This document shows, piece after piece, positions 32,909 to 50,039 of a stretch of DNA of 64,000 nt. The translations under genes and the position numbers were made by a program. Under the pieces are notes generated by a model that searched no databases, had not been told where the DNA came from, and saw only the letters and a list, made by a program, of their open reading frames with translations. Source of the DNA: Phycisphaerae bacterium (GTDB lineage: Bacteria > Chloroflexota > Anaerolineae > 4572-78 > J111); NCBI GenBank assembly GCA_028285035.1, contig JANQQF010000051.1, positions 53,876 to 117,875 on the forward strand. The letters are read 5' to 3'. Positions within the stretch are counted from its first letter, which is position 1. Every line of letters begins with the position of its first letter.

Positions 32909-35900
32909 CTATGGCGTAAACTGAACCGTACTCGCTGCGGGATTAGTGGTTCCAGTCAGGCTATCGATATATTCAACTCGAATACGACCAACCCCACCAT
33001 TTCCACCGCTTGCACCGTTAGGGCTATCTGGCACAAAGCCATCCCCCCCCAATGCTTCAACTAAATTTGTACCAAGAGTTGCGGTTTGAGCTTTGATAAA
33101 GACGGTTCCGCCAGAACCGCCACCACCGCCACCGACAATACTTCCAGCTGGTTCTTGTTGCCCATCAGCTCCATTAACTTGAATGGTACCAGTATTATTT
33201 ACAACAATATTAGCACTAAAGATGATAACAGCGCCGCCACCAGCACCACCTTTTGAGGCATTCCCTGACCAGTCACCCCCTGCACCACCGCCTGATCCTA
33301 GGAAAATACGGCTCATATCTGCATTCCCATAACTCTCTCCGCCTAAACCAGCAGGTTTATTCCTTGTCTCTCCATCCTCTCCAGGTGTGCCATATCCACC
33401 ACCGCCACCACCACCCCGCAAACTGGGAGGTTCCACTGACTCAGAGGTCCCTCCACCTCCACCGTGTGGGCTGTTATTGATTGCGCAGGTTGCAGAACTG
33501 ATATAGCTTTCCCCATATTGGCCAAAATTACCAGGGCAACTTGAACTATATTTTGTTCCCCCACCATGAAAGCCGATTGGTGGTCCACCTGGAGTGTCAT
33601 CTGCTTCAATTCTAGTGCTCGAACCATTAATAGTACCATCAATAGTGACCGTTCCATCAGCTAAAAAAGCCAATATTCCACCTGTATTTCCATTCCAGCC
33701 TTTGACATTCCATCTCTTACCACTCTCAACTGTGACATCTGTATACTGTTTCAAGACCAAGACTTGGCCTTTTGAAACTCCTGATGAGTAATCATAATCA
33801 AGCGGATCAACGGTCGTTATAGTACCTTCAGCATAGGATGCAATCTCATTAATTTCATAGAAACCAGCCTTAGTATTTTGCATCTGTATAATCAAAATTT
33901 TCTGACCCGCACTAAAGTCAGGATTTGTTGCGTTGAGGATGTTTGTACCAGCTAAGCCTGTTGCTACAGAATCGATAGGTATATCATTTGTGTCAGTCGA
34001 AATTGTTAACGGACCATCACGTCCATCGCCAAAAATGGCTGGGGCAGTGACAGATATGTAGCCTGATTTCACTTCTGTATCTGTTCCATTTGGACCTGAA
34101 ACTGTTAGGGTTACATCATAAGTACCAGCCTCATTATAGGTGTGCTGTGGATTCTGATCGGTACTGCTATTACCATCCCCAAAGTTCCACTGCCAACTAT
34201 CGATTTGACCAGAGGACTGGTCATTAAAGTTAACGGTAAATGGCATATGACCTGATGTTGTATCAGCTTGAAAATCAGCCGTTGGGTCACTTTGGCCAGT
34301 TACGATGACATAGCTTGACTTGATTTCTGTGGCACCCCCTTCAGATCCACTAACAGTTAGAATAACGTTATAAACGCCAGGGTTAGTGTAGGTGTGTTGC
34401 GGATTTTGGGCCGTACTTGTCCCGCCATCGCCAAAATCCCAGATCCATTCTGTAACTTGCCCAATGGATTGATCGGTGAAGGAGACCGTTAGTGGCGTAT
34501 CACCATTCAACGGGGTTGCATCAAAAGCAGCCGTTGGCCCGGTCTCACTCACGACAATGTACCCATTCTTAGTTTTGGTATCACTCTCTCCTGAACCAGA
34601 GACAGTCAGGCTGACACTAAAAGTACCCAATGTGGTGTAGGTGTGTTGTGGATGCTGTTGGGTGCTCGTATTCCCATCGCCAAAATCCCATTGCCAACTG
34701 GTAGTCTCGCCCGTTGATTGGTCATTGAAAATAACGGTTAATGGCGATTTACCCTTTACAGGAAGACCATTAAAGGCAGCGTTAATCTCGGCCCCAGGTT
34801 CTGAGGTTGGGGTTGGGGCTATAGTTGGCACGGGTGTTGGGGTTGCGACAGAGCCGCCACTTCCCTTCAAAATTATAGGTAGATAGAGGGTACTATTGAT
34901 CGTTGGTGGGCCGGTACCCGTTTCATAGAAAGAAACCGTATATATTGTACGACATCCGCCCACGTTAGGATTCCAATGTTTTACCAATAAGTAATAGATA
35001 CCATCGGCTGGTGCAGTCCAATCAATCCGAGAGGCTAACGTGTCATCATAATCGTCATTTGAGGCTAGCAGCGTGGTGCTATCTGTATCATACAAATATA
35101 GGTAGGTATCTGCACTGAGGCCTAAATTCGAGGTTTCAAGGATATAGGCTACCCCGCCAGATGCCTGTACTTGAAGCCAATCTTCATCAGCTAGGGCGTG
35201 GAAATTGCGGGTTTGGAAATCACCCGGTGTTAATAAGATTGGGGCTGAGGTCAAGTCGCTACTTTCGTTAGCATCAGGAGCAGCGATACAAATTTCAGTG
35301 CCAAAGGTTGAAATATTGTTGCTGTCGTCAGGCTCTGAGACCACCCCAGTGGAGTCAACTTGACTAAAGAGGGTGGTCGATATTTCTTCCATTGCCGATA
35401 ATAAACTCACTTGGCTGAGGCTGCCTAAGCTACCCAGATCATTGATGACCGTTGTCAGCGTAATACTTTCGCCAGCGGCAATCGGATCATTGACCAAAAA
35501 GTCGATGGTTTGGAAGAAATCGTTGGGGCCACCAGGCAGATGGTCGACATAGAAATGGGTATAAAATCCATTGGTGGTCGAGGCATCCCCTTCATTTTTG
35601 ACCAGCGCCTGAATGATAACCCCACTTTCAAAGGTGACGCCATCCACCGGATAGGTCGTTAATGATTGAAGCACTAAGTCGGAGGTGGTTCCTGCGGCCC
35701 CTGGGGGGAGGATGACACTCCCAGCGGCCACGGTGGGATCAATCTCCTTGCGGCTGAGCGGGAATTCCGTCCGGGCGATGTTTGACACTCGGACGTGCTG
35801 CATTTGACCGGGGAAAGGATTGGTCCCCGGCCAATTTGTGACCCCACCCAGTTTGAAAGGCGCATTGCTGTTATTGGGTGTATGATTTTCTGTCTTTTGG

Positions 35901-38900
35901 GCGCACTGTTCTCCATTGACATATATTCGGAAATCATTGGAGCCATTAAAGGTCACGGCCACGTGATACCATTTGTTTAAATCGAGAGCGGGACAATTGA
36001 AGCTGACCTCGCCCCCAAAAATCTTGGCGTGGGGCTTACGGTCATTGGTGATTCGCAACCAATAATTTTCCTTGTTGAAGACGTGGGGATAGGTACTGGT
36101 TGAGCCATCAAGTAAGATCCAGGCTTCCAAGGTCATCGCGCTCAAATTGAAATCGTTGTGATTACCAAAGTTGACTTCTGAGCTTGAGCCATTGAACAGA
36201 CCCGCGCGGCCAAATCGACCGCTGGTCCAGCCGGCTCCAGCAAACGAGCCATTATGCCCTCGCCCCGAGGCGTCGGTCACCGTGGAGCCACTCCCCTCTT
36301 GGAAGTGCCATAGACCCATTGTATTCCCATCCGGTTTTGGGAAAAAGACAGTATTCAAATCGGTGGGAGGGTCGGACACGGCGGCATTGCCATAATAAAG
36401 CTGATAATTATTTTCATCCGAGGCATTAACCCCAATATCGGCTTGCACCGGGAACCAAATATCAATGGCATCGGGCGTAAAGCTCTCGATAAATCGATTG
36501 AGTTCGGTGCTATTTTCATAAATAACGCGAACATCATCGCCCTTTGTAGACGATTGCGAGGCATCATAAATCTCTTGGGCGGTGGGCGTGGTTGAGGCAT
36601 CAAAGTGGAGATGAACGGTGTAATCGACGGGGGTCAAAAGCCAGTGGTTGTTCAAGATAACCAAGTTTCGTTTGAAACTGTAATCATCATTCCACCACGG
36701 GGTCACAGGAGTAGCGGTTGGGTCGATCAGGGTGCTGGTATCACCATCACCTGTTGGATAGCTCTCATAGTTACCAATTTTATCCATTGCCCGGACCCGG
36801 AAGTAGTAGGTGTGGCCAGTTTGCCCTGCAAAAATAGCGGTTCGATCTCGGGTATTGAGTAGCCAATCCTCCCAGGTGCCGGCCAAGCCATCACGTACTT
36901 GAACATCGTACCAGCGAATCTCGGAGCGATCATCAGAGCCACTCCAGCTCACGGTTACTTTTGTATCAAAGCTGGTTGCTGGCAAGGCTTGTACCACTGA
37001 GCTAGGGGCTTCAACATCAATATGGAAGAATGAACTCGACTCATTGGTGCCATATGGCCCGGTAGATGTCACTTGCCAATAGATGGTCTCGTGTGGGCTG
37101 GCAAAGGTGTGTTCATACTCTGTTGTCCCTGAAGAAAAGGTTTGGTCAATCAATGGGCTACTAAAATCTGAATTGGTACTGGCGACCAAGCGGTAGCTAT
37201 TGGTACGAAGTGTCTCCGGCCAATCAAATAGCACCGTGGTGCTGTTTATATAGCTATCCCGCTTTGGCACTTGAGAAAAGGGTTTATTAGGCCGACGATC
37301 AGCCGGTAAATTAATGACCAATTCGCTGGTCGCTGCTGCCTCCCACGTACCGGATTTACGGGCGTAGAGTCGAACAAGGTGTGCCCCCGCTTCATACTCC
37401 AATTGGGTCCAGGTTGGCGGACGATCCCCATCGTCGTCACATTCATAGTCGCCTACCCCAAGCTCATTGAGAATCTGCCACTCACCATTCCCTGAACCAT
37501 CGGTCGCTCGGTTGACCTGCACCTTTAAGGCCGAGGCATTGGTATCCGCACAGAAACAAACTTGATCTGAGGCTCCCCAACTTCCTTCACACCACCGCCA
37601 ATGAAAATCATAAATTTGGGGGTCTGGATTTTCGATATTAAAGCGATGGACCTCACTCCAGTCACTTTCTGCCCCCCGACTATCTTTCACTTTGGCCCGC
37701 CACTGATATCCCCAGAAGCCTAAGCCTGGTGGGGTCCAACTGTTGCTAGTTGTCCAACCACTCTTAGGAACATCATGGCTCTCGAAAATGTCGAAGAAGT
37801 ATTCGACAATCTCATCGCCATCGGGATCACCATTATGTTCTACTCTCAGGGTGGGAGTCGTCCCATCAAACACTGCCCAGTCCCCGGGATCAACCAAAGT
37901 CGGCGGGTTAGGCGGTTTATTCAAGTCTTCCGGCTTTTGGGTGCTAAATTTGATCTCGATTTCTGGTCCAACCCACCGACCATCTCGCCACACTTGCCAT
38001 ATACTGGTGTAGGTGCCAGGTTCATTAGGCGCGACCATCGGATTGTCCGCATAGAATTGGAAGGTATAGGTTTGTCCAGCCCCGACACTGCCCTCAACCG
38101 CAACGTGCGGAAAAGCTCCGTAACGCTCTCCACTTTTGTGGCGCAATAGATCCCCCCGACTATGTAGCAAAGATCCACTATTCACTTTGACCACAATCTC
38201 TGGGCGGAAGCTCTGACCAGGCTCAACGACTGAGGGGTAGCTGGCATCGTCAATTTCAATGTCGCCTGTTGGAGATGGATCAATTGGCTCATCAGAGCCG
38301 TTCCCTGGCACAATTAATTGGACCCACACTGGATCACCAAAATAAGTTCCACTTGGATTGCGGAGTTGCCACTGCCCATAGTATTTACCTGGCGCGGTTG
38401 GGGATTTTATATCAACCGATAAATCAACAGTGTTTCCAGGTGGTGTTGAAGGCACATCAACTGCTTGCGGTGCCCCCATCTGATCGCCACTTCTAAAGAC
38501 CAGTTGATAGCCACTGCCCCAAGTACTGGTTCCGCTATTTCGCATTCGCCAGGTTTTGATCAAAGCTTCACCTGGATTGACGGTTGAATTGTCGGGGATG
38601 GTGATGTCGGCAATGAAGGTGGCGGAATCAGAGGACCATAAGTGACTAACAGGTAACATTATACCTGGCCCGCCAATATATTGAGTATTAAAAGCATCCC
38701 AAATAATACCTATACTAGAGCGAGTTGGTGCCTGCCCTATTGAACGTGGAGTGTTGCCAAACCATAAATTTTGACTAGCCTCGCCCTCATAGCTTATTAA
38801 GGGGTCTGGAGGTGGAGTGGTACAGGTGTAACACCAACCAAATGGGTCCGTTACCTTTCCGTTTTTTAGCACTCTAAAGTGAAGATGGTTTCCTGTACTT

Positions 38901-39670
38901 TTGCCAGTACTACCTTGAGTACCGATTTGTTCACCAGCTTCTACGCATTCACCTGGTTCTTTAGTGTGAGACCCGCTAACAAGGTGAGAGTATCTTGTCA
39001 CATATCCATTAAGGTGATCTATTTCCGCGGTCCAACCATAGCTCCCATCGTACCAAGCTCTTACAAATTTACCAGATGCGCCAGCCAAAATCGGTGCGTC
39101 TGTGCCAGAAATTGCCCAATCATAGCCATCGTGACCATCATAGAAGATAGCTGACTCGCCTGTCGCTCCTAAATAACCTGAGATTGCTCCGCAAGAACCT
39201 GGATTTAATGGACCAATTGTGGATCCTGGGGCGTAACAGTTAGCAATCTCTTCCCCACTTATAGTCTTTGTAAGGACAGGGCTAGCTACTTCGCCATCCC
39301 ATAATACAATTTTCATTCCACGATTTATGCAATTTGAGTCTAATCCTAATGAACAAGTATAATCTGGAAAATGATGATCAAATGCGGCTGTCATTGTGTC
39401 CAGCCAGTCTCCACCTGTACCCGTATCATATGGGAGAAACAGAAAGTTGCTCGCAGGAGCGGCCTCACAGGATGCATCTGTAGGTGATAGAGCATTCTGA
39501 CTCGATACAAACTTTGATATCTTTATATCAAAAATCGGAATCTCTATTTGTCTTGCTTGTTGACTCCAATCTAAGCTAAAGATTAAAGCTATTGGCATAG
39601 AAAAAATAATTATCAGGAGATACTTTTGAATAATCCTATTTTGGATTATTAGAGGTAATAAATCTCGCAT
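32909..39670 (-). CDS. Giant secreted multidomain protein with M23 peptidase domain
   Basis: 2253 residues from the ATG 39670, preceded by AGAGAGG; a TTG at 39691 is less likely. An N-terminal membrane/signal segment (about 15-33) is followed by an M23-type peptidase domain with ligands His180, Asp184 (HDGYD) and HLH (262-264). Then come an NBR1-type Ig-like domain, fibronectin/TIG-like segments, DUF2341, a LamG-like fold, CARDB (SDLVLQSLTTYP), a PPC-like domain and three PKD repeats (WDFGDG). The C-terminus is glycine-rich with GGGG runs. It should be a surface or secreted peptidoglycan- or polymer-binding protein. The triple PKD and Gly tail suggest stalk-like adhesion. Confidence 0.8.
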   Translation of the reverse strand: MRDLLPLIIQNRIIQKYLLIIIFSMPIALIFSLDWSQQARQIEIPIFDIKISKFVSSQNALSPTDASCEAAPASNFLFLPYDTGTGGDWLDTMTAAFDHHFPDYTCSLGLDSNCINRGMKIVLWDGEVASPVLTKTISGEEIANCYAPGSTIGPLNPGSCGAISGYLGATGESAIFYDGHDGYDWAISGTDAPILAGASGKFVRAWYDGSYGWTAEIDHLNGYVTRYSHLVSGSHTKEPGECVEAGEQIGTQGSTGKSTGNHLHFRVLKNGKVTDPFGWCYTCTTPPPDPLISYEGEASQNLWFGNTPRSIGQAPTRSSIGIIWDAFNTQYIGGPGIMLPVSHLWSSDSATFIADITIPDNSTVNPGEALIKTWRMRNSGTSTWGSGYQLVFRSGDQMGAPQAVDVPSTPPGNTVDLSVDIKSPTAPGKYYGQWQLRNPSGTYFGDPVWVQLIVPGNGSDEPIDPSPTGDIEIDDASYPSVVEPGQSFRPEIVVKVNSGSLLHSRGDLLRHKSGERYGAFPHVAVEGSVGAGQTYTFQFYADNPMVAPNEPGTYTSIWQVWRDGRWVGPEIEIKFSTQKPEDLNKPPNPPTLVDPGDWAVFDGTTPTLRVEHNGDPDGDEIVEYFFDIFESHDVPKSGWTTSNSWTPPGLGFWGYQWRAKVKDSRGAESDWSEVHRFNIENPDPQIYDFHWRWCEGSWGASDQVCFCADTNASALKVQVNRATDGSGNGEWQILNELGVGDYECDDDGDRPPTWTQLEYEAGAHLVRLYARKSGTWEAAATSELVINLPADRRPNKPFSQVPKRDSYINSTTVLFDWPETLRTNSYRLVASTNSDFSSPLIDQTFSSGTTEYEHTFASPHETIYWQVTSTGPYGTNESSSFFHIDVEAPSSVVQALPATSFDTKVTVSWSGSDDRSEIRWYDVQVRDGLAGTWEDWLLNTRDRTAIFAGQTGHTYYFRVRAMDKIGNYESYPTGDGDTSTLIDPTATPVTPWWNDDYSFKRNLVILNNHWLLTPVDYTVHLHFDASTTPTAQEIYDASQSSTKGDDVRVIYENSTELNRFIESFTPDAIDIWFPVQADIGVNASDENNYQLYYGNAAVSDPPTDLNTVFFPKPDGNTMGLWHFQEGSGSTVTDASGRGHNGSFAGAGWTSGRFGRAGLFNGSSSEVNFGNHNDFNLSAMTLEAWILLDGSTSTYPHVFNKENYWLRITNDRKPHAKIFGGEVSFNCPALDLNKWYHVAVTFNGSNDFRIYVNGEQCAQKTENHTPNNSNAPFKLGGVTNWPGTNPFPGQMQHVRVSNIARTEFPLSRKEIDPTVAAGSVILPPGAAGTTSDLVLQSLTTYPVDGVTFESGVIIQALVKNEGDASTTNGFYTHFYVDHLPGGPNDFFQTIDFLVNDPIAAGESITLTTVINDLGSLGSLSQVSLLSAMEEISTTLFSQVDSTGVVSEPDDSNNISTFGTEICIAAPDANESSDLTSAPILLTPGDFQTRNFHALADEDWLQVQASGGVAYILETSNLGLSADTYLYLYDTDSTTLLASNDDYDDTLASRIDWTAPADGIYYLLVKHWNPNVGGCRTIYTVSFYETGTGPPTINSTLYLPIILKGSGGSVATPTPVPTIAPTPTSEPGAEINAAFNGLPVKGKSPLTVIFNDQSTGETTSWQWDFGDGNTSTQQHPQHTYTTLGTFSVSLTVSGSGESDTKTKNGYIVVSETGPTAAFDATPLNGDTPLTVSFTDQSIGQVTEWIWDFGDGGTSTAQNPQHTYTNPGVYNVILTVSGSEGGATEIKSSYVIVTGQSDPTADFQADTTSGHMPFTVNFNDQSSGQIDSWQWNFGDGNSSTDQNPQHTYNEAGTYDVTLTVSGPNGTDTEVKSGYISVTAPAIFGDGRDGPLTISTDTNDIPIDSVATGLAGTNILNATNPDFSAGQKILIIQMQNTKAGFYEINEIASYAEGTITTVDPLDYDYSSGVSKGQVLVLKQYTDVTVESGKRWNVKGWNGNTGGILAFLADGTVTIDGTINGSSTRIEADDTPGGPPIGFHGGGTKYSSSCPGNFGQYGESYISSATCAINNSPHGGGGGTSESVEPPSLRGGGGGGGYGTPGEDGETRNKPAGLGGESYGNADMSRIFLGSGGGAGGDWSGNASKGGAGGGAVIIFSANIVVNNTGTIQVNGADGQQEPAGSIVGGGGGGSGGTVFIKAQTATLGTNLVEALGGDGFVPDSPNGASGGNGGVGRIRVEYIDSLTGTTNPAASTVQFTP

Positions 39671-39786
39671 TTTAATCCTCTCTTTACTCAATCTGCAGTT
39701 GGATACTAATCAAAAACTTTGTCACTTTTGCTTAAACCTGCTACCAGGTTCATACAATGAACGATAGAAAAAGAAATAGGGAGATA

Positions 39787-41022: not shown

Positions 41023-42438
41023 GTGGAAAAAATTGGGCTATCAACCTCTAAACTTCGTAATGGTGTTCAGGAAGTCCTCAAAAAGTGGCATAATCTTCCT
41101 CCTAATTACAATCCGTTTGCAACATTAACCATCTTTCGACAGGCTCGGCAGACGTCAGATAGCGATCAAGACGCCATCCAAAAACTTCTGCAAGACGCAA
41201 TTGATCTTTTAGGAACAGATCAAAAAGATCATTCAGATTTGTTGCGCAAATACTTTATCCAACGTATGACCGTACAAAATATCGCCCAATCGCGTAGCAT
41301 CAGCGAACCCAGTGTTTATAGAAAGAAAGATGAGAGTCTTGAGCATCTAACTTCTGTGCTACAGCGAATGGAAGTTAAGGCGCGGGAAACGTGGCAGGTT
41401 GAACTAGAACAATTATTGGATATACCTGCTTTTGTCTCTTTGGTTGGTTCAACTAAGCCGTTAACACAACTTGTAGAGGTTATAAATCAGGCTCCAGAGC
41501 CTGAAATTATTTGTATTGACGGGCTTGGTGGTATTGGAAAAACTGCCTTGGCGAGCGCTTTACTGCGACAGCCAAGTATTTCTGGTCAATTCCATAAAGC
41601 AGCTTGGGTTAGTGCAAAACAACAGGTTTTTCTTCCTGGAAAAGGGATGCAAACCTTGGCGCATGGCCCTGCCCTCAATGTTGAAACCTTGATAGATGCG
41701 CTTCTGGACCAGCTTAATGTTGACATTACTTCCCCCCAATCTCCTCAACAGAAAAAGGCTAGCCTGATTGAGCTAACAAAATCATTACCTATTTTGATTG
41801 TGATCGATAATCTTGAAACAGTGTTGGACTATGAGGCGCTACTACCCTTCTTAAGAAAGCTCACTAATCCTAGTAAAATAGTATTGACCAGTCGTCACAG
41901 TCTTCGGGCCTACTCTGGCATCTACAGTTTGAGTCTAAATGAGCTTAACCAAATGGATACGTTACGTCTTATCCAAAAGGAGGCCAGTGATAAAGGTCTA
42001 GCTGAAATTGCTGAGGCAACAGATAAAACGTTACAGGTCGTATATGATATTGTTGGGGGCAATCCACTCGCCCTTAAATTAGTGGTTGGGCAAGTATCTG
42101 TCTTGTCGCTCTCAGAAGTTTTAGAAAATTTGTGGGCTGTCAAAGGAGAAACCATTGAAGATTTATACAAATACATCTATTGGCAGACGTGGGCGATGCT
42201 AACAGAGGCGGCAAAAAAAATCCTGTTAATGATGCCAACCGTGGATGAAGCAATTATTCCCCAACTCTCAGCCGCCACTCGATTGGATACAACCCAGGTT
42301 CAACAAGGTCTGCAACAATTGGCCCAAGTATCTTTAGTTCAGGTTGGTGGTACCCTTGAACATCGTCGATATACCATTCATCGGCTGACTGAAAATTTTC
42401 TTTTGAATGAGGCACTTCAGTGGAACAAATCAATGTAG
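41023..42438 (+). CDS. STAND regulator 1: sigma-like HTH plus NB-ARC ATPase
   Basis: 471 residues from a GTG start. Residues 65-115 (LLRKYFIQRMTVQNIAQSRSISEPSVYR) form a sigma-70-region-4-like HTH found on Chloroflexota NB-ARC proteins. NB-ARC motifs: P-loop GLGGIGKT (167-174), kinase-2 LIVIDNLE (about 258-265), LTSRHS, and GGNPLALKL (about 345). It ends in a winged-helix-like segment without TPRs; the TPR partner is the next gene, which overlaps it by 19 bases. STAND proteins are ATP-dependent switches; the HTH suggests transcriptional control rather than direct killing. Confidence 0.8.
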   Translation: MEKIGLSTSKLRNGVQEVLKKWHNLPPNYNPFATLTIFRQARQTSDSDQDAIQKLLQDAIDLLGTDQKDHSDLLRKYFIQRMTVQNIAQSRSISEPSVYRKKDESLEHLTSVLQRMEVKARETWQVELEQLLDIPAFVSLVGSTKPLTQLVEVINQAPEPEIICIDGLGGIGKTALASALLRQPSISGQFHKAAWVSAKQQVFLPGKGMQTLAHGPALNVETLIDALLDQLNVDITSPQSPQQKKASLIELTKSLPILIVIDNLETVLDYEALLPFLRKLTNPSKIVLTSRHSLRAYSGIYSLSLNELNQMDTLRLIQKEASDKGLAEIAEATDKTLQVVYDIVGGNPLALKLVVGQVSVLSLSEVLENLWAVKGETIEDLYKYIYWQTWAMLTEAAKKILLMMPTVDEAIIPQLSAATRLDTTQVQQGLQQLAQVSLVQVGGTLEHRRYTIHRLTENFLLNEALQWNKSM

Positions 42439-43643
42439 ATCATCACAAAGACCGTCTCAATTTCTTTCAACAAGGCATTGTCGATAACCTCCTCTATTGG
42501 CAAGGTGTAGTGACCCAATCTCCTACCGACCTCAACAGGTTAGATAGGGAACGAAACAATATACTCAAAGCTATTCGTTATGCGTTGCAGCTTGAAAAAC
42601 TTGCTTGGACATCTGCACGAAATATTATCGAGAGCTACTCCACTTTTGTAGAGCGACGTGGGTATTGGGAGCGTTGGCAGCAGATTCTGAGTCAAGCTGT
42701 TGAAGTAGCACAAAAATGTGGTGACGCAACTGGGGTCGCTAATATATCTGCCATCAATGCTCGTTTATTTTCTCACCAACGTCGCGTAAAAGAAGCAGTA
42801 GTGACCTATCAAAACGCTATAAAACTGTCTCGTCAACTCGATGACGCCTTTGGAGAAGCACGAGCCTGCACAAATTTAGGTTATCTCTACGTAGAACAAG
42901 GCTACTGGTGGCGGGCTGAGGTGCTATGTTGCCACGCCCTACGATTATTTGAAGAAATTGATAGCGACCATGGTCGGGCACATACCGAGAATCATTTGGG
43001 TTTCTTATATACTTGGCGATGCGAATGGAATCGTGCTCAACATCATCTAGAACGGGCTTGTACGATCTGGCTAAATATGGAAGATGAGCATGGCTTGATG
43101 CGAGGGTATATCAATCTAGCGGCAATGTATCTCCGCATAAAACAAGCAGATTTAGCCTTGACCTATTTGAAAAAAGCCTCACATCAGGCTAAATTAACCA
43201 GAGAGGAAGCGTCAATTGGGATGATTTATGCAAATATGGGCTACGCCTATTTTCTAACCAATAAATTGGATCAGGCCAAAAGCCATATAGATGAAGCTAT
43301 AGAAATCTTTCAATATTTTTCAGACACGGCTGGACTAGGGTTAGCCTGGAATATTTTGGGTGTTACCTACATTGGTCAGGGTAATCTATCAGAAGGTATG
43401 CAGTATTTTGAAAAATCCTTCAATGCTTGGCATAAATTAGACAATAAACTTGGCAAGGCTGAGGTATTGATGGACATGATTGAGTATCATTTAACCCAAG
43501 AAGAATACCAACAAGCCTGTATCCGGATCGATCAGGCAGAGGACATGATTGGACAAAACCCCCATCAGAAATATGAACACTTTCAGCCACGCTTAATCGA
43601 GTATCGTGACATATTAAACGAGCGATTGTCACTCATAAAATGA
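42420..43643 (+). CDS. TPR-repeat protein, partner of STAND regulator 1
   Basis: 407 residues from a GTG start overlapping the NB-ARC gene by 19 bases in another frame. Helical repeats follow the TPR pattern (ACTNLGYLYVEQGYWWRAEVL, HLGFLYTWRCEWNRAQHHL, NMGYAYFLTNKLDQAKSHI, ILGVTYIGQGNLSEGMQYF). TPR proteins bind peptides or protein partners. In single-chain STAND proteins such a domain follows the NB-ARC as the sensor, so this looks like a split STAND receptor. It converges on the small secreted-peptide gene 64 bases downstream. Confidence 0.8.
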   Translation: MEQINVDHHKDRLNFFQQGIVDNLLYWQGVVTQSPTDLNRLDRERNNILKAIRYALQLEKLAWTSARNIIESYSTFVERRGYWERWQQILSQAVEVAQKCGDATGVANISAINARLFSHQRRVKEAVVTYQNAIKLSRQLDDAFGEARACTNLGYLYVEQGYWWRAEVLCCHALRLFEEIDSDHGRAHTENHLGFLYTWRCEWNRAQHHLERACTIWLNMEDEHGLMRGYINLAAMYLRIKQADLALTYLKKASHQAKLTREEASIGMIYANMGYAYFLTNKLDQAKSHIDEAIEIFQYFSDTAGLGLAWNILGVTYIGQGNLSEGMQYFEKSFNAWHKLDNKLGKAEVLMDMIEYHLTQEEYQQACIRIDQAEDMIGQNPHQKYEHFQPRLIEYRDILNERLSLIK

Positions 43644-43707
43644 ATCTCCAAAAATGGCTTGTTGAAGACAAGCCTCAACAAGCCACTCTCAAAATTTAAC
43701 TACTAGA

Positions 43708-43863
43708 TTAGCAACCGCCGCCAGAACCACCTGATGTAGCACAAGCGTGGGTTTGCGGTGTTACTGCAAAGCCAAGGGCATCAGCTACGATCCCAGTTGA
43801 ACCCGTTACGGCTGCCAATAACGCCAGCCCAGTAACGATACCAAGGATACGCTTTTTAAGCAT
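43708..43863 (-). CDS. Small secreted peptide, 51 aa, Gly/Cys-rich C-terminus
   Basis: ATG at 43863 with AAGGAGGT eight bases upstream, an excellent ribosome-binding site. Residues 1-20 are a typical signal sequence (MLKKRILGIVTGLALLAAV) and the C-terminus is short and polar with ATSGGSGGGC and a second Cys. The gene lies between the TPR gene and STAND regulator 2, on the reverse strand. The Shine-Dalgarno is inside a hairpin: CCTCC/GGAGG and TTTCC/GGAAA arms at 43873-43895. It could be a secreted signalling peptide, bacteriocin-like or modified peptide; nothing resolves which. Confidence 0.6.
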   Translation of the reverse strand: MLKKRILGIVTGLALLAAVTGSTGIVADALGFAVTPQTHACATSGGSGGGC

Positions 43864-43872
43864 CTCAGTTGA

Positions 43873-43895
43873 CCTCCTTTCCGTGGAAATGGAGG
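43873..43895 (-). promoter_or_regulatory. Hairpin sequestering the peptide ribosome-binding site
   Basis: On the minus strand CCTCC-A-TTTCC pairs with GGAAA-GGAGG around a 2-base loop; the second arm holds the Shine-Dalgarno. Translation would be blocked until the structure opens, a common form of post-transcriptional control. Confidence 0.5.
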
Positions 43896-43924
43896 ACCAG
43901 TGAGATGAGAGATCTCCCGGCTAG

Positions 43925-44000
43925 ACGTCAGAATGACGTTTAACCAATTCGCGAATTATCTATGGCCCAATATGAATAAAGCTTTGGGTTCGGACCGAAC
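43925..44000. promoter_or_regulatory. Divergent control region of peptide 1 and STAND regulator 2
   Basis: Contains ACGTCA/TGACGT (43925-43939), the 12-base palindrome AATTCGCGAATT (43946-43957) and GTTCGG-A-CCGAAC (43988-44000). The last shares TTCGGWCCGAA with the region before STAND regulator 3. Such a cluster fits control of divergent genes by the HTH proteins. Confidence 0.55.
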
Positions 44001-44030
44001 TTTGTGCGAGCTCAGCTACAGCGTAACAGA

Positions 44031-44053
44031 GGGTACGGTACCTGTACGTACCC
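44031..44053. promoter_or_regulatory. Inverted repeat 7-9-7 before STAND regulator 2
   Basis: GGGTACG, spacer GTACCTGTA, CGTACCC. It lies between the GTTCGGACCGAAC palindrome and the preferred start at 44085, so that start, not the GTG at 44004, is more likely. Confidence 0.45.
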
Positions 44054-44084
44054 GGGGTACGTGGACCAAATGATGGAGCATGAG

Positions 44085-46676
44085 ATGGCTTTGCCGCCAC
44101 CACAATATGAAGATAGCCTTGGGGTCTTTTGCGGGGATTTACGCTCGCTGTTATTTAACAGCCAACGTGAAGCAGCCGGGTATTTTGGCGTAGCCCGTCC
44201 CACCATCAACCGCTATGAGGCAGGCCGGTATCCTGCCCCCGTAGCTTATATCGCCGCCTTAATTTATCTTGTGGTGGAAGCGCAAGAGGAAGCAGATAGG
44301 GAAGAATATCGCAAGCGTTTGTTACAAGGGGTTAATCAAGCCATTCGGGACTATCACACAGATGAGATTTTTCAAGACTGGCTTGATTTAGAAACCGTCG
44401 CCAAAGATCGTCTGGCACAGGTAGACAAAACAAATAAATCTGATGACAGAGCTCAAACCAATATTCCCCACGAGGCCGGCCCGCTTCCGACTGTCTATGT
44501 CGAACGCAAACGCTTACAAGATTTGCTGGTGCAAAAAATAATCGAGGAGAAAACTTCTGCTTTGGTCTTGTGGGGGGCTGGGGGAATGGGTAAGAGTATG
44601 ATCGCTCAGTGGCTCATAAACCAAGGTCACTCAGAGTTCCCCGATGGTCAGCTTTGGGTCGAGGTCCCCGAAACAGGTACCCCCGCAACCGCCATCCAAG
44701 AGGTACAGGCCAGCGTGGCTAGACGATTCGGCGTCACGTTATACGGCACTGCCCTGGCCGAGCGTGCAGCCCAACTACGCACCCTGCTAGCGGAGAAACG
44801 CTGTCTTATTATTTTGGATAATCTCTGGTTTACCAGCCAGTTATCCCACTTAAAAATTATCAGCGAGGGCAGTCATTTGCTGATAACAACGCGCTATCAA
44901 AAAGTGGCCGATGTGTTGGAGACGCCAGTGATCCCTGTCAAAGGAATGTCGTTAGCAGAGGGGGAGGCTTTATTAGCAAATTGGGCGGAACAGCCGATAG
45001 AGGGCTCGAAGCTGGTAGATCGTTTGGGGGGGTTGCCTTTAGCCCTCAAGCTAAGCGGGGTTCAACTTCGTGAGGGGGAAACTGTCGAAGCGTTGCTGGG
45101 TTATTTTCGACAAAATCAAGTTGATCTTTCGCAATTAGCCCTGGATAATCCTGAAAGTACCTCAGATAGTCTCATTCCTTGCTTTGATCAAAGCTTTATC
45201 CGGCTCAATGAGGCTGAACAAAAAAGATTTAGGCAACTCGGCTGTTTTATTGCTCGGTTTGACCAACTTGCCTGTCAAAATTTATGGGGCTTGCCTACCC
45301 CCGAGGTTAAACGGCTGCTGCGGCGATTTTGTGCGCTCGCCTTGGTCGAGCGATTTAAGACACACTATCGACTCCATCCCTTAATTCGCGACTATGCACA
45401 GCAGAAGCTCCAAACTGACCAAACTGATTATGCAACTGCCCAACGCCGCCTCGCCGCTTATCACATTCGTTATTACTTATATCACCCCCAGGTGTTAGAT
45501 GATGTGACAACTCAAGCTCCAAGTGTTGAGGATATCTGGCCTGATATTGTGGCGGGTGTCAATTGGGCCACGCAACATACCCCTCAGTTGGCAGCGATGG
45601 CCACACTGCTAGCTCACACCGAGCGTCCTGCCTTACTCGAAGCGGTTGGTCCATCACTGATCGATAGTATCGAACTTTATTTGACCAACGACCTCGACAA
45701 CACATCTGAACAGGCACTCATACATGACCTTTTAGGTGACTTATATATTTTAAATGGCGATTTATCTAAGGCTCTAAATCATTTTGAAAAATCTGCTGCT
45801 TTATGGACAGTTATTGACCAGCCCTTTATTAGTCATCGTGCAATCTTGCGTATGGCCGGACTCAGTCTAATCATAAGTGATTTAAATGCTACAGGTAACA
45901 AACTTGCTCAAGCTCAAAAGAATTTATCAGAATGTCTGCCAATTTCCCCAGATCACTTAGAAGTGGCCCGTTGGCTTTTCTATTGGTTTGATCTTATTTA
46001 TACAATATTTATAAGATCAAATTCTATTGAATTGCTAGCGGACCTTGTCATTGACTTTGTGAACTTGGCCAAAGAAACCGAACAACCGCTTTTGGAAGCA
46101 AGGGGCCTTCATATTTACCGCTTATACTTAACCGCCAATCATCCATTGAAGGATCACCCAAAAGGCCGTCAAGCAGCGGCAACGGCGGCGTGGTTATGGT
46201 GGAAATATGGTGAAAAGGACAAAGCGTTAGCTGAGGTCATGTGGGCGCAAGAAGCAACCAGCCCCCGAAAAAACGTTTACAACCTTCGACGAAAAAAATT
46301 CGCACGAAGACTCTCACACGCTACACCAACTCTCAGTCAGGATCAAATTGAAATTATTGAGCAGGATCAGATGCGGTCTTGGTTAATGATGCGTGAAGAT
46401 GATCGCATTACCTGGTTTGTTGAGGAGTTAATGCCACCAGGGACAGACAATTGGGAGGCTGTTAAAGATATATTAAGCATCAGCACGATGGGAAAACCAA
46501 TACGCCGGCTAGCGCAAGGGCTTACACGACCGGATGATTCGATGATCAGCGAGTCGATATGGAAATTGCTAACGGGTCAACGCGCCCTCCCATTGGTAGG
46601 CCACTCGGTCCAAAATGTGGTTCAGCGTTATCTAAATCTTTTAGAGGCGACTTTACGTGATGATTACTATGGCTAA
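44085..46676 (+). CDS. STAND regulator 2: XRE-type HTH, NB-ARC, helical sensor region
   Basis: 863 residues from the ATG 44085, preceded by GGAG; an upstream GTG at 44004 runs through two palindromes. An N-terminal HTH (about 25-50, SQREAAGYFGVARPTINRYE) is followed by an NB-ARC ATPase: P-loop GAGGMGKS (about 164-171), kinase-2 CLIILDNLW, ITTRYQ and GGLPLALKL. The C-terminal 430 residues are helical repeats. It is a complete single-chain STAND transcription regulator. The divergent peptide gene and the shared palindrome suggest it senses a peptide and controls the locus. Confidence 0.8.
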   Translation: MALPPPQYEDSLGVFCGDLRSLLFNSQREAAGYFGVARPTINRYEAGRYPAPVAYIAALIYLVVEAQEEADREEYRKRLLQGVNQAIRDYHTDEIFQDWLDLETVAKDRLAQVDKTNKSDDRAQTNIPHEAGPLPTVYVERKRLQDLLVQKIIEEKTSALVLWGAGGMGKSMIAQWLINQGHSEFPDGQLWVEVPETGTPATAIQEVQASVARRFGVTLYGTALAERAAQLRTLLAEKRCLIILDNLWFTSQLSHLKIISEGSHLLITTRYQKVADVLETPVIPVKGMSLAEGEALLANWAEQPIEGSKLVDRLGGLPLALKLSGVQLREGETVEALLGYFRQNQVDLSQLALDNPESTSDSLIPCFDQSFIRLNEAEQKRFRQLGCFIARFDQLACQNLWGLPTPEVKRLLRRFCALALVERFKTHYRLHPLIRDYAQQKLQTDQTDYATAQRRLAAYHIRYYLYHPQVLDDVTTQAPSVEDIWPDIVAGVNWATQHTPQLAAMATLLAHTERPALLEAVGPSLIDSIELYLTNDLDNTSEQALIHDLLGDLYILNGDLSKALNHFEKSAALWTVIDQPFISHRAILRMAGLSLIISDLNATGNKLAQAQKNLSECLPISPDHLEVARWLFYWFDLIYTIFIRSNSIELLADLVIDFVNLAKETEQPLLEARGLHIYRLYLTANHPLKDHPKGRQAAATAAWLWWKYGEKDKALAEVMWAQEATSPRKNVYNLRRKKFARRLSHATPTLSQDQIEIIEQDQMRSWLMMREDDRITWFVEELMPPGTDNWEAVKDILSISTMGKPIRRLAQGLTRPDDSMISESIWKLLTGQRALPLVGHSVQNVVQRYLNLLEATLRDDYYG

Positions 46677-46929: not shown

Positions 46930-48336
46930 ATGGCAAGTCAATTTGGGGAGCTATTAACAGAAGCAATTTATAAAATTAAAAGCCTAACCTCGAAACCAGT
47001 TGGCATCATAGAGGAAGAATTAGGGAATGCCTTGGGGAAAGATGGCCGTGCATCTATTGAAAGTTGGCGTCGGCCAAATAGTCGTCCCCCGGCGAAAGTT
47101 GAGGATGTTATTAAACTAGCTCACATCATTGCTGAACATACTGATTTTGATCGACAGTGGCTACAAAGGTTTCTTCATCATGGCCGTCATCCCAACCCAA
47201 AAGAATTTTGTAATGCATTATTTGGCCCACTACCTTCAGATGATGAGGCAACAGCCTCAACCAGCCAACCAACCACTTCAAAAGAATTGCCAACACAACT
47301 ACCCGATAAAGCATATGGCAAACTGGTCGGACGCGATACACTTATCGAAGAGATATTGGGTGTCCTGCAGAGTGAATCAGGGAAACGTATCATTGCCATT
47401 GACGGAATGGGTGGTATAGGGAAAACGGCCCTAGCCCGTGAGCTTGTTGACCTCAGCCTAGAAAAACAGTCATTTGAATTAGCAATATGGGTAGAATCGC
47501 CAAAAGAAAAATTTATCGATTTGAGTTATAGTCAAAAAAGTAGCGATTTAACATTTGAGACAGTTTTAGACGGAATCGCTCGGCACTTGGGGGCACGGGA
47601 TATCTTTAAGCTTAAAGGATCAGAAAAAGAGGCTCGAATAAGGGTGTTACTTCAAATGCAATCTATTCTTCTAATATTAGACAACCTAGAAACGGCTAAA
47701 GAATCTCAAAATGAGATTGCTCAGAAACTTTTACCATTGCTTGGAAATAGCAAGGCAATCTTTACCAGTCGTCAACGATTTGTGGGGGAAATGTATCCTA
47801 TCCATTTAACAGGTCTTGACGAAGCAGGCTCCTTAACATTTATTCGGCAAGAAGCCAGTGAAAAGAGCATCCGTCGAGTACAGACAGCGGAGATCGCTGA
47901 GCTAAAGCAAATCGCTCACGATACGGGTGGGTCTCCTTTGGCTTTAAAGCTTGTGGTGGGTCAACTCGTCTATCTAAATTTAGATCATATCTTAACCTTG
48001 CTTCGTGATGTACAGATACCAAATCAAGATAGTGGTGAAGATGAATACTTCAAACTATATCAAAATATTTTCTTTTCTTCTTGGAAAGTACTTTCCGATA
48101 ACAGTCAAAGATTACTGATTTCAATGTCTCATTTTGCTCCAAATGTTGGGGGCACGATTGAGGCGCTTGAACTTACGAGTGAAATTGACAAATCCACGCT
48201 AATTCGGGCAATCCGGCAATTGTGGCGACTGTCTTTTTTAGAAGTCGGAGAGTCGCCAAAGCTAAACAAGATACGCTATTATTTACACGCCTTAACCCAA
48301 CATTTTGTCTTAGCGGATATTGTGAAAATTATTTAG
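46930..48336 (+). CDS. STAND regulator 3: N-terminal HTH-like plus NB-ARC
   Basis: 468 residues, ATG preceded by AAAGGAGGAACG. Residues 1-90 form an XRE-like helical domain (TSKPVGIIEEELGNALG, SIESWRRP). NB-ARC: P-loop GMGGIGKT (159-166), kinase-2 SILLILDNLE, FTSRQRF and GGSPLALKL. Like STAND regulator 1 it lacks its own TPRs, and three TPR genes follow. It is a paralogue of regulator 1, and the pair look like split STAND receptors. Confidence 0.8.
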   Translation: MASQFGELLTEAIYKIKSLTSKPVGIIEEELGNALGKDGRASIESWRRPNSRPPAKVEDVIKLAHIIAEHTDFDRQWLQRFLHHGRHPNPKEFCNALFGPLPSDDEATASTSQPTTSKELPTQLPDKAYGKLVGRDTLIEEILGVLQSESGKRIIAIDGMGGIGKTALARELVDLSLEKQSFELAIWVESPKEKFIDLSYSQKSSDLTFETVLDGIARHLGARDIFKLKGSEKEARIRVLLQMQSILLILDNLETAKESQNEIAQKLLPLLGNSKAIFTSRQRFVGEMYPIHLTGLDEAGSLTFIRQEASEKSIRRVQTAEIAELKQIAHDTGGSPLALKLVVGQLVYLNLDHILTLLRDVQIPNQDSGEDEYFKLYQNIFFSSWKVLSDNSQRLLISMSHFAPNVGGTIEALELTSEIDKSTLIRAIRQLWRLSFLEVGESPKLNKIRYYLHALTQHFVLADIVKII

Positions 48337-48356
48337 TGAAGCCAACTTGAGGTAAT

Positions 48357-50039
48357 TTGAACGATTTAAAAACAATACGTGAGGTCTATTATTCATCTGA
48401 ACAAAAATTCGTGCTTCGATCGTTAGCACTTGTTCATGAGCATGGTGGATCGTCTATGAGCGAAATGGACATCCTTGTTTTAGATGAAGACTTAAAAAAT
48501 ATAATTCGTGCGATTAATAGCGTTTGGGCAAACAAACAGTGGGCGTATGTTAGAGAATTTAGCGCTAAGATGGCCGAATTTCTTGATAATCGATCACATT
48601 GGAACATCTGGGCTGAATTAGCTCAAATGGGCGTCGATGCAGCAAAACATTTAGATAATAAAGTGGCGTTAGCCGAAACTTTGGGTAATTTAGGGGTGGT
48701 CCAGATACGTCTAGGCGCTTGGGACAACGCTGTCGATATTTTGGGAGAAGCCTTAAATTTATTTCAACAATCACAAAATCCACATAATGTAGCACTCACC
48801 CTTAACAATCTAGGAAGCATTGCCCATGACAAAGGCGAATGGGATCAAGCGCTTGATTATTATCAACAATCCTTTGAACTTCACCGCCAGATTGGTGATC
48901 GATTTGAACAAAGTGATGTATTAATGAATATGGCCTCAATATATAGTGCTCGAGGAGATTGGGCAGAAGCTGTTAAGATATTGCAACAGTGCCAGAACAA
49001 CTTTGTTGAGCTAGATGATCAGATTGGTATTGCATTTGTCAATGTTAATCTTGGAAACGTTTATCGCTTGACGGGTCAATTCAATGAGGCAATGGCAGTT
49101 TATCAAACATCGCTAGAAACTTTTCGACGAATTGAGGATCGTTATAACGAAGGTCGAACTTTAGTCAACATTGGCAATATCCATTCACAAAGAGGCGAAT
49201 GGAAACAAGCCATGGCTTGTTATAAACAAGACCTTGATATCTGCAGAGAATTGAATGATGAAGAAGGCTTGGCTACAACCTTATTAAGTTTGGGTATGAT
49301 TTTACGTTACCAGGCTTCCTGGGCTGAAAGTATTCATTTTCTGAAGCAAGCCCTTCTAATATTTCGTAAATTAGGCGATGCACCTGGCGTTAGTCAGGCT
49401 TTAAATAATTTGGGGAATGTATATCTTCAACAAGAAGCATTTGATGATGCAATCAACTGTTATCAAGAAGATTTAGATTTATGTCGTCAGATTGGCGATC
49501 GTATCGGTGAAAGTACCACATTAAACAACCTTGGATTACTATTTTCCAAAACAGAGCAGATACAGGAGGCACTAGATTGTTTTAGCCAAGGGCTAAAATT
49601 GGCTGGGGAGCTTGAAGACCTTGATAATCAGTCATATCTCTTGGCAAATCTCGGGATGCTTTATCTTGATATTGGAGATTTACCCGCTGCTACAGAGAAT
49701 TTACAAAATAGTTTGGTCTTGTGTCGAAAATTGGATGACAAATTAGGCGAAAGCACTACCTTGATGAATATGGGAACCCTTCATCGTCAGCAAGACAATT
49801 TAGATATTGCCTTGAAAAATTATAACGAAAGTTTGATCTTGAAAGAAGATTTAGGTGATGTTGCGGGGATTGGTGAAGTAAAAGTCTGTATGGGCGGATT
49901 ATATTGGCAAAAAGGCGATTTGGATTTAGCAAGAAAATCGTTAGAGGATGCTTTTGACATCCTTAAAGATATTGATTCTCCTTATATCGAAACCATCATC
50001 AATTGGTTAAAACAGATACCATCCCATAATACCCCTTAA
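48357..50039 (+). CDS. TPR protein A, 560 aa
   Basis: Starts at a TTG 20 bases after STAND regulator 3. Roughly eleven TPR-type repeats at about 40-residue spacing span most of the protein (TLNNLGSIAHDKGEWDQALDY, NMASIYSARGDWAEAVK, NLGNVYRLTGQFNEAMAVY, NNLGNVYLQQEAFDDAIN). There is no catalytic motif. Probably the sensor subunit of STAND regulator 3, able to bind a peptide or protein ligand. Exact start is uncertain. Confidence 0.8.
   Translation: MNDLKTIREVYYSSEQKFVLRSLALVHEHGGSSMSEMDILVLDEDLKNIIRAINSVWANKQWAYVREFSAKMAEFLDNRSHWNIWAELAQMGVDAAKHLDNKVALAETLGNLGVVQIRLGAWDNAVDILGEALNLFQQSQNPHNVALTLNNLGSIAHDKGEWDQALDYYQQSFELHRQIGDRFEQSDVLMNMASIYSARGDWAEAVKILQQCQNNFVELDDQIGIAFVNVNLGNVYRLTGQFNEAMAVYQTSLETFRRIEDRYNEGRTLVNIGNIHSQRGEWKQAMACYKQDLDICRELNDEEGLATTLLSLGMILRYQASWAESIHFLKQALLIFRKLGDAPGVSQALNNLGNVYLQQEAFDDAINCYQEDLDLCRQIGDRIGESTTLNNLGLLFSKTEQIQEALDCFSQGLKLAGELEDLDNQSYLLANLGMLYLDIGDLPAATENLQNSLVLCRKLDDKLGESTTLMNMGTLHRQQDNLDIALKNYNESLILKEDLGDVAGIGEVKVCMGGLYWQKGDLDLARKSLEDAFDILKDIDSPYIETIINWLKQIPSHNTP

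Follow-up and report, generated by a model that had tools for sequence, protein, structure and literature searches.

Among bacterial STAND ATPases, AfsR and MalT are regulators of secondary-metabolite and stress genes, and the ligands so far known for the MalT-type proteins are small molecules; NB-ARC-TPR proteins of the systems for ribosomally synthesized and post-translationally modified peptides (RiPPs), such as FxSxx_TPR and HaaT, are linked to small peptide genes. The signature of RRNPP peptide signaling comprises five criteria, namely a propeptide of 10-100 amino acids (aa), a Sec-dependent signal by SignalP, a receptor of about 250-500 aa, TPRs and adjacency of the two genes (PMC10075063), and RRNPPA systems are described in Firmicutes (PMC9765709); the terms "chloroflex" and "NB-ARC" occur neither in the main text of the former nor in the part of the latter's text that was examined. 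Here we describe, in a 64,000-nucleotide (nt) stretch of contig JANQQF010000051.1 from a bacterium of the Chloroflexota class Anaerolineae (the window, by which we mean the whole stretch), one full module in which the gene for a 51-aa peptide, preceded by a structured leader RNA, faces an overlapping pair of genes for an NB-ARC (STAND) protein and a TPR protein tail to tail, with a further STAND gene divergent from it (Table 1). The module and its leader RNA are well supported by comparison of related loci, and the whole has the look of a novel type of peptide signaling in bacteria: we consider it reasonably probable that an exported peptide is sensed by a split STAND receptor, with the leader RNA gating translation.

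The module resembles RRNPP/RRNPPA systems (Rap-Phr, NprR-NprX, PlcR-PapR, Rgg-SHP, ComR-ComS, and AimR) in that a small signal-like precursor is encoded beside a TPR protein of 250-500 aa with a predicted fold near those of Rap and NprR, and in the presence of several paralogous pairs per genome. The 51-aa propeptide, the 407-aa protein with its TPRs, and the adjacency of the two genes, in the window and at 39 of 43 sites overall, all agree with the RRNPP signature. Unlike in RRNPP/RRNPPA systems, no DNA-binding domain is seen in the TPR protein, whose partner is a separate NB-ARC ATPase, and the module is found in Chloroflexota, carries a structured leader RNA, has a convergent gene order and encodes Gly-rich or Cys-bounded tails. 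The 471-aa partner possesses the NB-ARC NTPase domain of STAND proteins; in contrast to the AfsR, MalT, and GutR type of regulator, the proposed receptor is split over two overlapping genes and linked to a peptide gene. As in RiPP systems, NB-ARC and TPR proteins are linked here to a small peptide gene, and the divergent window protein matches the NCBIfam models FxSxx_TPR and HaaT weakly, with scores (50 bits vs. a cut-off of 300 and 73 bits vs. 1125) far under the curated cut-offs; the leaders of the module peptides are signal-like, and no modification enzyme was identified near the modules, whose neighbors are only partly annotated. Finally, the leader, conserved, structured and capable of concealing the ribosome site, recalls riboswitch leaders with Shine-Dalgarno (SD)-sequestering expression platforms, in which a junction RNA is followed by an SD hairpin overlapping a long-range stem, but it has neither an Rfam match nor a known ligand. 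Literature searches on STAND, NB-ARC, TPR, and Chloroflexota peptide signaling, RNA motifs, and RiPP precursors returned, among the matches listed, no description of a STAND/NB-ARC peptide receptor or of this leader.

The peptide gene starts with ATG, 5' of which lies the SD sequence AAAGGAGG, and its product, MLKKRILGIVTGLALLAAVTGSTGIVADALGFAVTPQTHACATSGGSGGGC, combines a signal-like segment with a Cys/Gly-rich tail, CATSGGSGGGC, preceded by a THA motif. The THA|C junction would be compatible with cleavage by signal peptidase I, and the peptide is probably secreted, as the sequence-only reading, an earlier inspection of this DNA without database searches, had proposed from its signal sequence. 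A search of the protein collection at E<=1 recovered 31 homologues besides the window peptide itself, with identities of 45-75%; those named by their source are all annotated as "hypothetical protein," two of them from Chloroflexi bacteria. The 32-row alignment contains the invariant residues M1, L2, K3, K4, T35, A40, C41, G48, G49, and C51. Among six 51-aa genes (window, L001, L002, L011, L027, and L030), differences amount to 0.34, 0.14, and 0.62 at codon positions 1, 2, and 3, respectively, and the excess at the third position is that expected of a protein subject to purifying selection. Thus, the open reading frame (ORF) that the earlier inspection had singled out is real and belongs to a conserved coding family. 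The window peptide matched no family in Pfam or NCBIfam, searches in phages and plasmids returned zero matches, and none of the pattern matches in viral contigs was confirmed as a relative.

The same reading held that the ribosome site is hidden by a hairpin, and this is borne out. The arms 43861-43880 and 43888-43907 are 20 nt long and 80% complementary; the 161-nt fold 43830-43990(-) has a z of -3.4, with 0 of 200 shuffles folding equally well; and the mean unpaired probability of the SD region is 0.22 for the peptides (n=41) vs. 0.47 for other ORFs of the same loci (n=218), for which the first start codon following a stop was mechanically taken as the control start. Beyond what that reading noticed, the hairpin forms the 3' end of a larger leader RNA of about 110 nt, directly 5' of the peptide ATG and conserved among relatives. 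In type A leaders (the window and seven others), stem P1 encloses the junction hairpins P2a, P2, and P3, and the SD hairpin that follows overlaps the 3' strand of P1 by its 5' arm, so that the full P1 and the full SD hairpin compete. Two of the palindromes in the intergenic region, P2a and P2, are helices of this RNA. In type B leaders (six sequences), a P1/P2/P3 junction was proposed by RNAalifold itself; here P1 is compatible with the inner SD stem and overlapped by the outer one, so that a switch would alternate between short and long forms of the SD hairpin.

The helices of both types are supported by covariation. In the MAFFT alignment A4 of type A, 92.5% of the cells pair and 11 pairs are changed on both sides; the double-change count and the covariation score are matched by 0 of 500 shuffles, the number of pair types by 53 of 500, and shifting the pairing partners abolishes the covariation signal. 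For the SD hairpin, 92.6% of the cells pair and covariation is weaker (shuffles match the score in 2 and the double-change pairs in 79 of 500). In type B, the score is matched by 0, the double-change pairs by 10 and the pair types by 79 of 500 shuffles. Among 26 leaders aligned by a model, an alignment that hence leans toward the structure, 94.4% of the cells pair and double changes occur in 18 pairs (70 cells), with 0 of 500 shuffles reaching any measure. Kinship alone can raise the covariation score above that of shuffles without any structure, and the pair counts are the safer measure. Rfam contains no family for the leader: a scan of the window at the gathering score found nothing, two sub-threshold matches lay elsewhere in related loci, and one further match (E 6.7) is due to chance. 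The leader model R1, trained on the window leader, recovers it, and R2, built without the window sequence, has its best window match at 43861-43928(-) (E 0.0019) and a second at 43821-43907(+) (E 0.032); neither model matches the window outside 43821-43971.

The module recurs within one class of Chloroflexota. A scan of species genomes confirmed at least two loci, L001 (Anaerolineales metagenome-assembled genome (MAG) H5_CFX5) and L002 (Anaerolineae MAG HKST-UBA12). The peptide profile gave matches in 9 of the 396 class genomes, in 6 of 12 genomes from one family and in 7 of 25 from one order, each tally including one false match in genome G319 (L034), rejected because it sits within a long ORF unrelated to the peptide. 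For a second order, the tally was 11 of 46 genomes, 6 with true copies and 5 with weak matches in long ORFs. The new leader-RNA family doubles as a finder, its models having led to short peptide genes undetected by the peptide profile. In 25 genomes, R1 detected known leaders as well as a strong new one at G002:C837 (E 2e-16) and a weak match at G001:C4; the latter matched R2 strongly (E 2.5e-13), and R2 added a new leader at G001:C3. Each of these three stands before a short ORF that converges on TPR and NB-ARC genes, the peptide at G002:C837 being masked by N. In 46 genomes of another order, R2 gave 24 matches in 16 genomes; one training locus aside, 18 of 23 adjoin a convergent TPR gene (4 of them known from the peptide), and the remaining five comprise two contig ends, a short ORF for which no TPR gene was found (L075) and two unrelated sequences. 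A weak R2 match in the first order (L095, E 0.04) is likewise unrelated, and the weak leader matches L082, L090, and L095 mark no module. Model R3 yielded 26 matches in 18 of the 396 class genomes, all preceding a short ORF and 23 with a convergent TPR gene, and phylum-wide 1 of 400 genomes, the center genome itself; filtering was strict in both R3 scans and no more than 10 candidates were scored in each genome, so that leaders can be missed.

We assembled 43 sites, 42 via peptide or leader matches and one via an NB-ARC search. Left out were the partial peptide matches L015 and L016, L034, the weak long-ORF matches L044-L048, the contig-edge leaders L073 and L079, the module-less L082, L090, and L095, the leaderless second peptide of L029 and renumbered repeats. 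Kept were L065 (the peptide masked by N), L115 (neither TPR nor NB-ARC found), L011 (NB-ARC without TPR), L126 (a convergent gene that reads as a MurJ-type transporter, with a related NB-ARC gene divergent), L032 (a TPR fragment only, E 3.2e-12, with a divergent NB-ARC + TPR pair), L124 (NB-ARC alone in the site count, with a TPR piece in another scan), and L052 and L011, where the leader is weak or was recognized just by eye or with an E of 0.049. With receptor profiles built from the two receptor proteins of the window and their relatives, a convergent TPR gene was found at 39 sites, NB-ARC at 36 and both at 34. The usual partner of the peptide is thus the convergent pair, in the window 41023-43643. 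Conversely, the window NB-ARC protein has 25 matches at E<=1e-40 in seven genomes, and 18 of these matches lie within modules, including L156, a module recognized only in this way (leader E 0.003, new peptide ending PAHAEECVGSSC); the other seven are a gene cut by a contig end (L153), two without a neighboring TPR gene (L154 and L155), two pairs without a detected leader (L157 and L158), one whose TPR gene lies on its opposite side (L159), and the divergent pair at L028.

Around true copies, the peptide gene and a gene for a TPR protein of about 400 aa meet tail to tail, and the start of the TPR gene usually overlaps a gene for an NB-ARC protein of 450-530 aa. A single 845-codon ORF at L033 matches both parts; other ORFs separate the two genes at L027, and L011 lacks the TPR gene. 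The window TPR protein matches TPR_12 in Pfam (7.6e-21) and is predicted to form a TPR superhelix that resembles the Rap-Phr and NprR receptors and equally other TPR superhelices; the structural comparison took in the families listed by Foldseek, with VIA-align as a second look at that list. A profile search from this protein reached RapF at 3.5e-9 and NprR at 2.5e-7, with generic TPRs scoring better. The 471-aa protein matches PF00931 (1.3e-14, 54.5 bits vs. a cut-off of 23.5), and the Pfam evidence for its helix-turn-helix (HTH) segment is a match to Phage_antitermQ (2.9e-4) below the cut-off. Among 10 NB-ARC partners scanned for HTH domains, only that of L108 scored above the cut-off (Sigma70_r4, 6.2e-7), and that of L001 fell just below it (HTH_31, 1e-5). 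As a separate observation, the N-terminal DNA-binding part of these proteins is seemingly exchangeable, being HTH_31-like in L001:11395-12771 and Sigma70_r4 in L108:2465-3886. The window also contains, at 46930-50039, a second NB-ARC + TPR pair followed by two further TPR genes (to 52522), with no leader match.

At sites other than the window, the peptides are 48-85 aa long as called, the 85-aa call at L121 probably starting too early; the later start used there for the tail statistics sits 90 nt past the leader end. The leader-found peptides are very different in sequence, short, mostly Gly-rich and signal-like, with tails such as CGQQGSGC, DHTGGSTGGG, NEPHGGGG, DEPPGGH, EYESGGGG, CANQGGGGDC, CGTQCSSGSGGG, VCDDTSCH, and CHDTTCG. 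By a hydropathy rule, 38 of 41 peptides are signal-like vs. 162 of 1636 mechanically called control ORFs; at least three Gly occur among the last ten residues in 34/41 vs. 27/225 control ORFs; and an AxA-like site lies 6-14 residues before the C-terminus in 32/41 vs. 91/225 signal-like control ORFs. Paralogous modules within one genome encode differing C-terminal peptides, as expected if signaling channels are separate. At L029:1659-2159, two near-identical peptide genes occur in tandem, and the leader RNA is present only at the 2004-2159 copy.

In the mechanism that we propose, a short precursor would be translated from an mRNA in which the structured leader draws the SD sequence into a hairpin and, given the overlap of P1 with an arm of that hairpin, can gate translation by switching between the two. 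Export by the Sec pathway and cleavage near an AxA site would release a C-terminal peptide of about 7-13 residues, in the window putatively CATSGGSGGGC, possibly closed by a disulfide loop. The convergent operon encodes the standalone TPR protein that would recognize this peptide, probably after re-import; the recurring neighborhood and the Rap/NprR-like predicted superhelix suggest such recognition. The TPR protein may act with the overlapping HTH-NB-ARC ATPase as a STAND regulator in two chains, for which the single ORF at L033 offers a comparison, and the pair might control the peptide promoter and/or the divergent gene via locus-specific palindromes. If so, Chloroflexota would possess a defined cytoplasmic peptide-signaling system, and bacterial STAND (NLR-like) ATPases a self-made peptide ligand. 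The wider proposal that Anaerolineae perform quorum sensing through split HTH-NB-ARC + TPR pheromone receptors, with a new class of RNA switch on the pheromone mRNA and several mutually distinct pairs of peptide and receptor working in parallel within one cell, is more tentative, and we rate its chances at slightly below even. The module opens gene-by-gene testing of what the NB-ARC/TPR proteins of Chloroflexota respond to.

The strongest competitor, which we regard as unlikely, is that the peptide is an output, bacteriocin-like or another secreted effector, under the control of an NB-ARC/TPR regulator that responds to a different signal, rather than the ligand. Regulation of secondary-metabolite and stress genes by AfsR and MalT, the Cys/Gly-rich and diverse nature of the peptides, and the tandem second copy at L029 would all fit such a role; yet only the NB-ARC/TPR pair recurs at most mapped sites (most other neighbors being without annotation), the putative mature products are just about 7-13 residues long, and the predicted TPR structure is Rap-like. 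Clearly less probable still is a type I toxin-like locus, with a small membrane peptide and a hidden ribosome site checked by an antisense RNA or a neighboring regulator: a short hydrophobic peptide with an SD-sequestering leader is indeed reminiscent of type I toxin mRNAs, but six of the ten invariant residues (T35, A40, C41, G48, G49, and C51) fall in the polar tail region, the AxA site is enriched, and a receptor-like operon usually adjoins. To the same low degree we would credit the possibility that the upstream element is mainly DNA, a stack of palindromic operators for HTH proteins with the RNA helices as a by-product. P2a and P3 often read as palindromes with self-complementary centers, and within the 90 nt preceding the leader, the best palindrome varies in sequence from locus to locus and is beaten by 0 of 20 shuffles at 13 of 43 sites; against this, P1 and P2 pair across variable insertions and with compensatory changes, the ribosome site retains a conserved SD hairpin, and the excess of GU over AC cells on the peptide strand (98 vs. 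21, the structures having been chosen with GU allowed) points to an RNA of that strand. An attenuator or upstream-ORF reading was rejected because the peptide gene runs into a convergent TPR gene at 39 of 43 sites.

Table 1. Features of the peptide module and its surroundings in the window
Feature	Position	Strand	Remarks
NB-ARC (STAND) protein, 471 aa	41023..42438	+	Proposed regulator half of the receptor; weak N-terminal HTH-like segment
TPR protein, 407 aa	42420..43643	+	Proposed peptide-binding half of the receptor; gene overlaps NB-ARC gene
11-bp inverted repeat between convergent genes	43655..43685		Probably a shared terminator
Putative mature peptide (11 aa) + stop codon	43708..43743	-	CATSGGSGGGC, predicted
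Peptide gene, 51 aa	43708..43863	-	ATG start; signal-like segment, then Cys/Gly-rich tail
Conserved leader RNA, type A	43861..43971	-	P1/P2a/P2/P3 junction, then SD-sequestering hairpin
SD-sequestering hairpin	43861..43907	-	SD core 43873-43877; anti-SD 43891-43895; start codon 43861-43863
Long-range stem P1	43894..43968	-	43963-43968 with 43894-43899; 43958-43961 with 43903-43906; positions read from alignment
P3 hairpin	43907..43918	-	
P2 hairpin (palindrome)	43919..43945	-	
P2a hairpin or operator palindrome	43946..43957	-	AATTCGCGAATT
Palindrome 5' of leader, possible operator	43988..44000		GTTCGGACCGAAC; similarly placed palindromes in L027 and L031
Palindrome, possible operator	44046..44062		ACGTACCCGGGGTACGT
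Divergent HTH-NB-ARC protein, 890 aa as listed	44004..46676	+	Weak TPR matches; variable neighbor, possible target

The surroundings anticipated by the sequence-only reading are present: palindromes occupy the intergenic region, a TPR gene converges on the ORF, and an HTH-NB-ARC gene diverges from it. STAND proteins flank the peptide on both sides. Lack of conservation next to STAND genes, which that reading had named as grounds for its refutation, was checked and does not hold: the peptide is conserved beside STAND genes and the gene order extends beyond this genome, so that a STAND partner does recur, namely the convergent NB-ARC gene; the divergent STAND gene, which had been cast as the partner, was rejected as a constant companion. 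Where the sequence upstream exceeds 800 nt (41 sites), a divergent NB-ARC-like gene is found at 15 sites, and L002 adds another (16 of 43). According to Pfam, ten divergent proteins include NB-ARC proteins, Trans_reg_C, HTH-propeller, AAA_35, HTH with a long C-terminal part, PPC-domain, and NUDIX hydrolase types; given this variation, the STAND neighbor in the window is one of several exchangeable divergent genes. By reading, an in-frame ATG at 44070 is its likelier start.

Several divergent genes have long C-terminal parts: L035:5654-7498 shows an HTH match below the cut-off and Reg_prop propeller matches, L111:6109-9159 an HTH_3 match below the cut-off, and L127:7639-10809 PPC and Ig-like matches. 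Seven related divergent proteins (L001:8252-9712 and those of L012, L013, L029, L030, L031, and L033) form a cluster with P-loop-like motifs by reading; that of L001, the only member scanned, carries a Trans_reg_C winged helix at its C-terminal end and gave no NTPase match in Pfam. Elsewhere in the window, 32909-39691 holds a 2260-aa ORF that contains a peptidoglycan-hydrolase-like segment and matches the AgmC_N gliding protein model below the cut-off.

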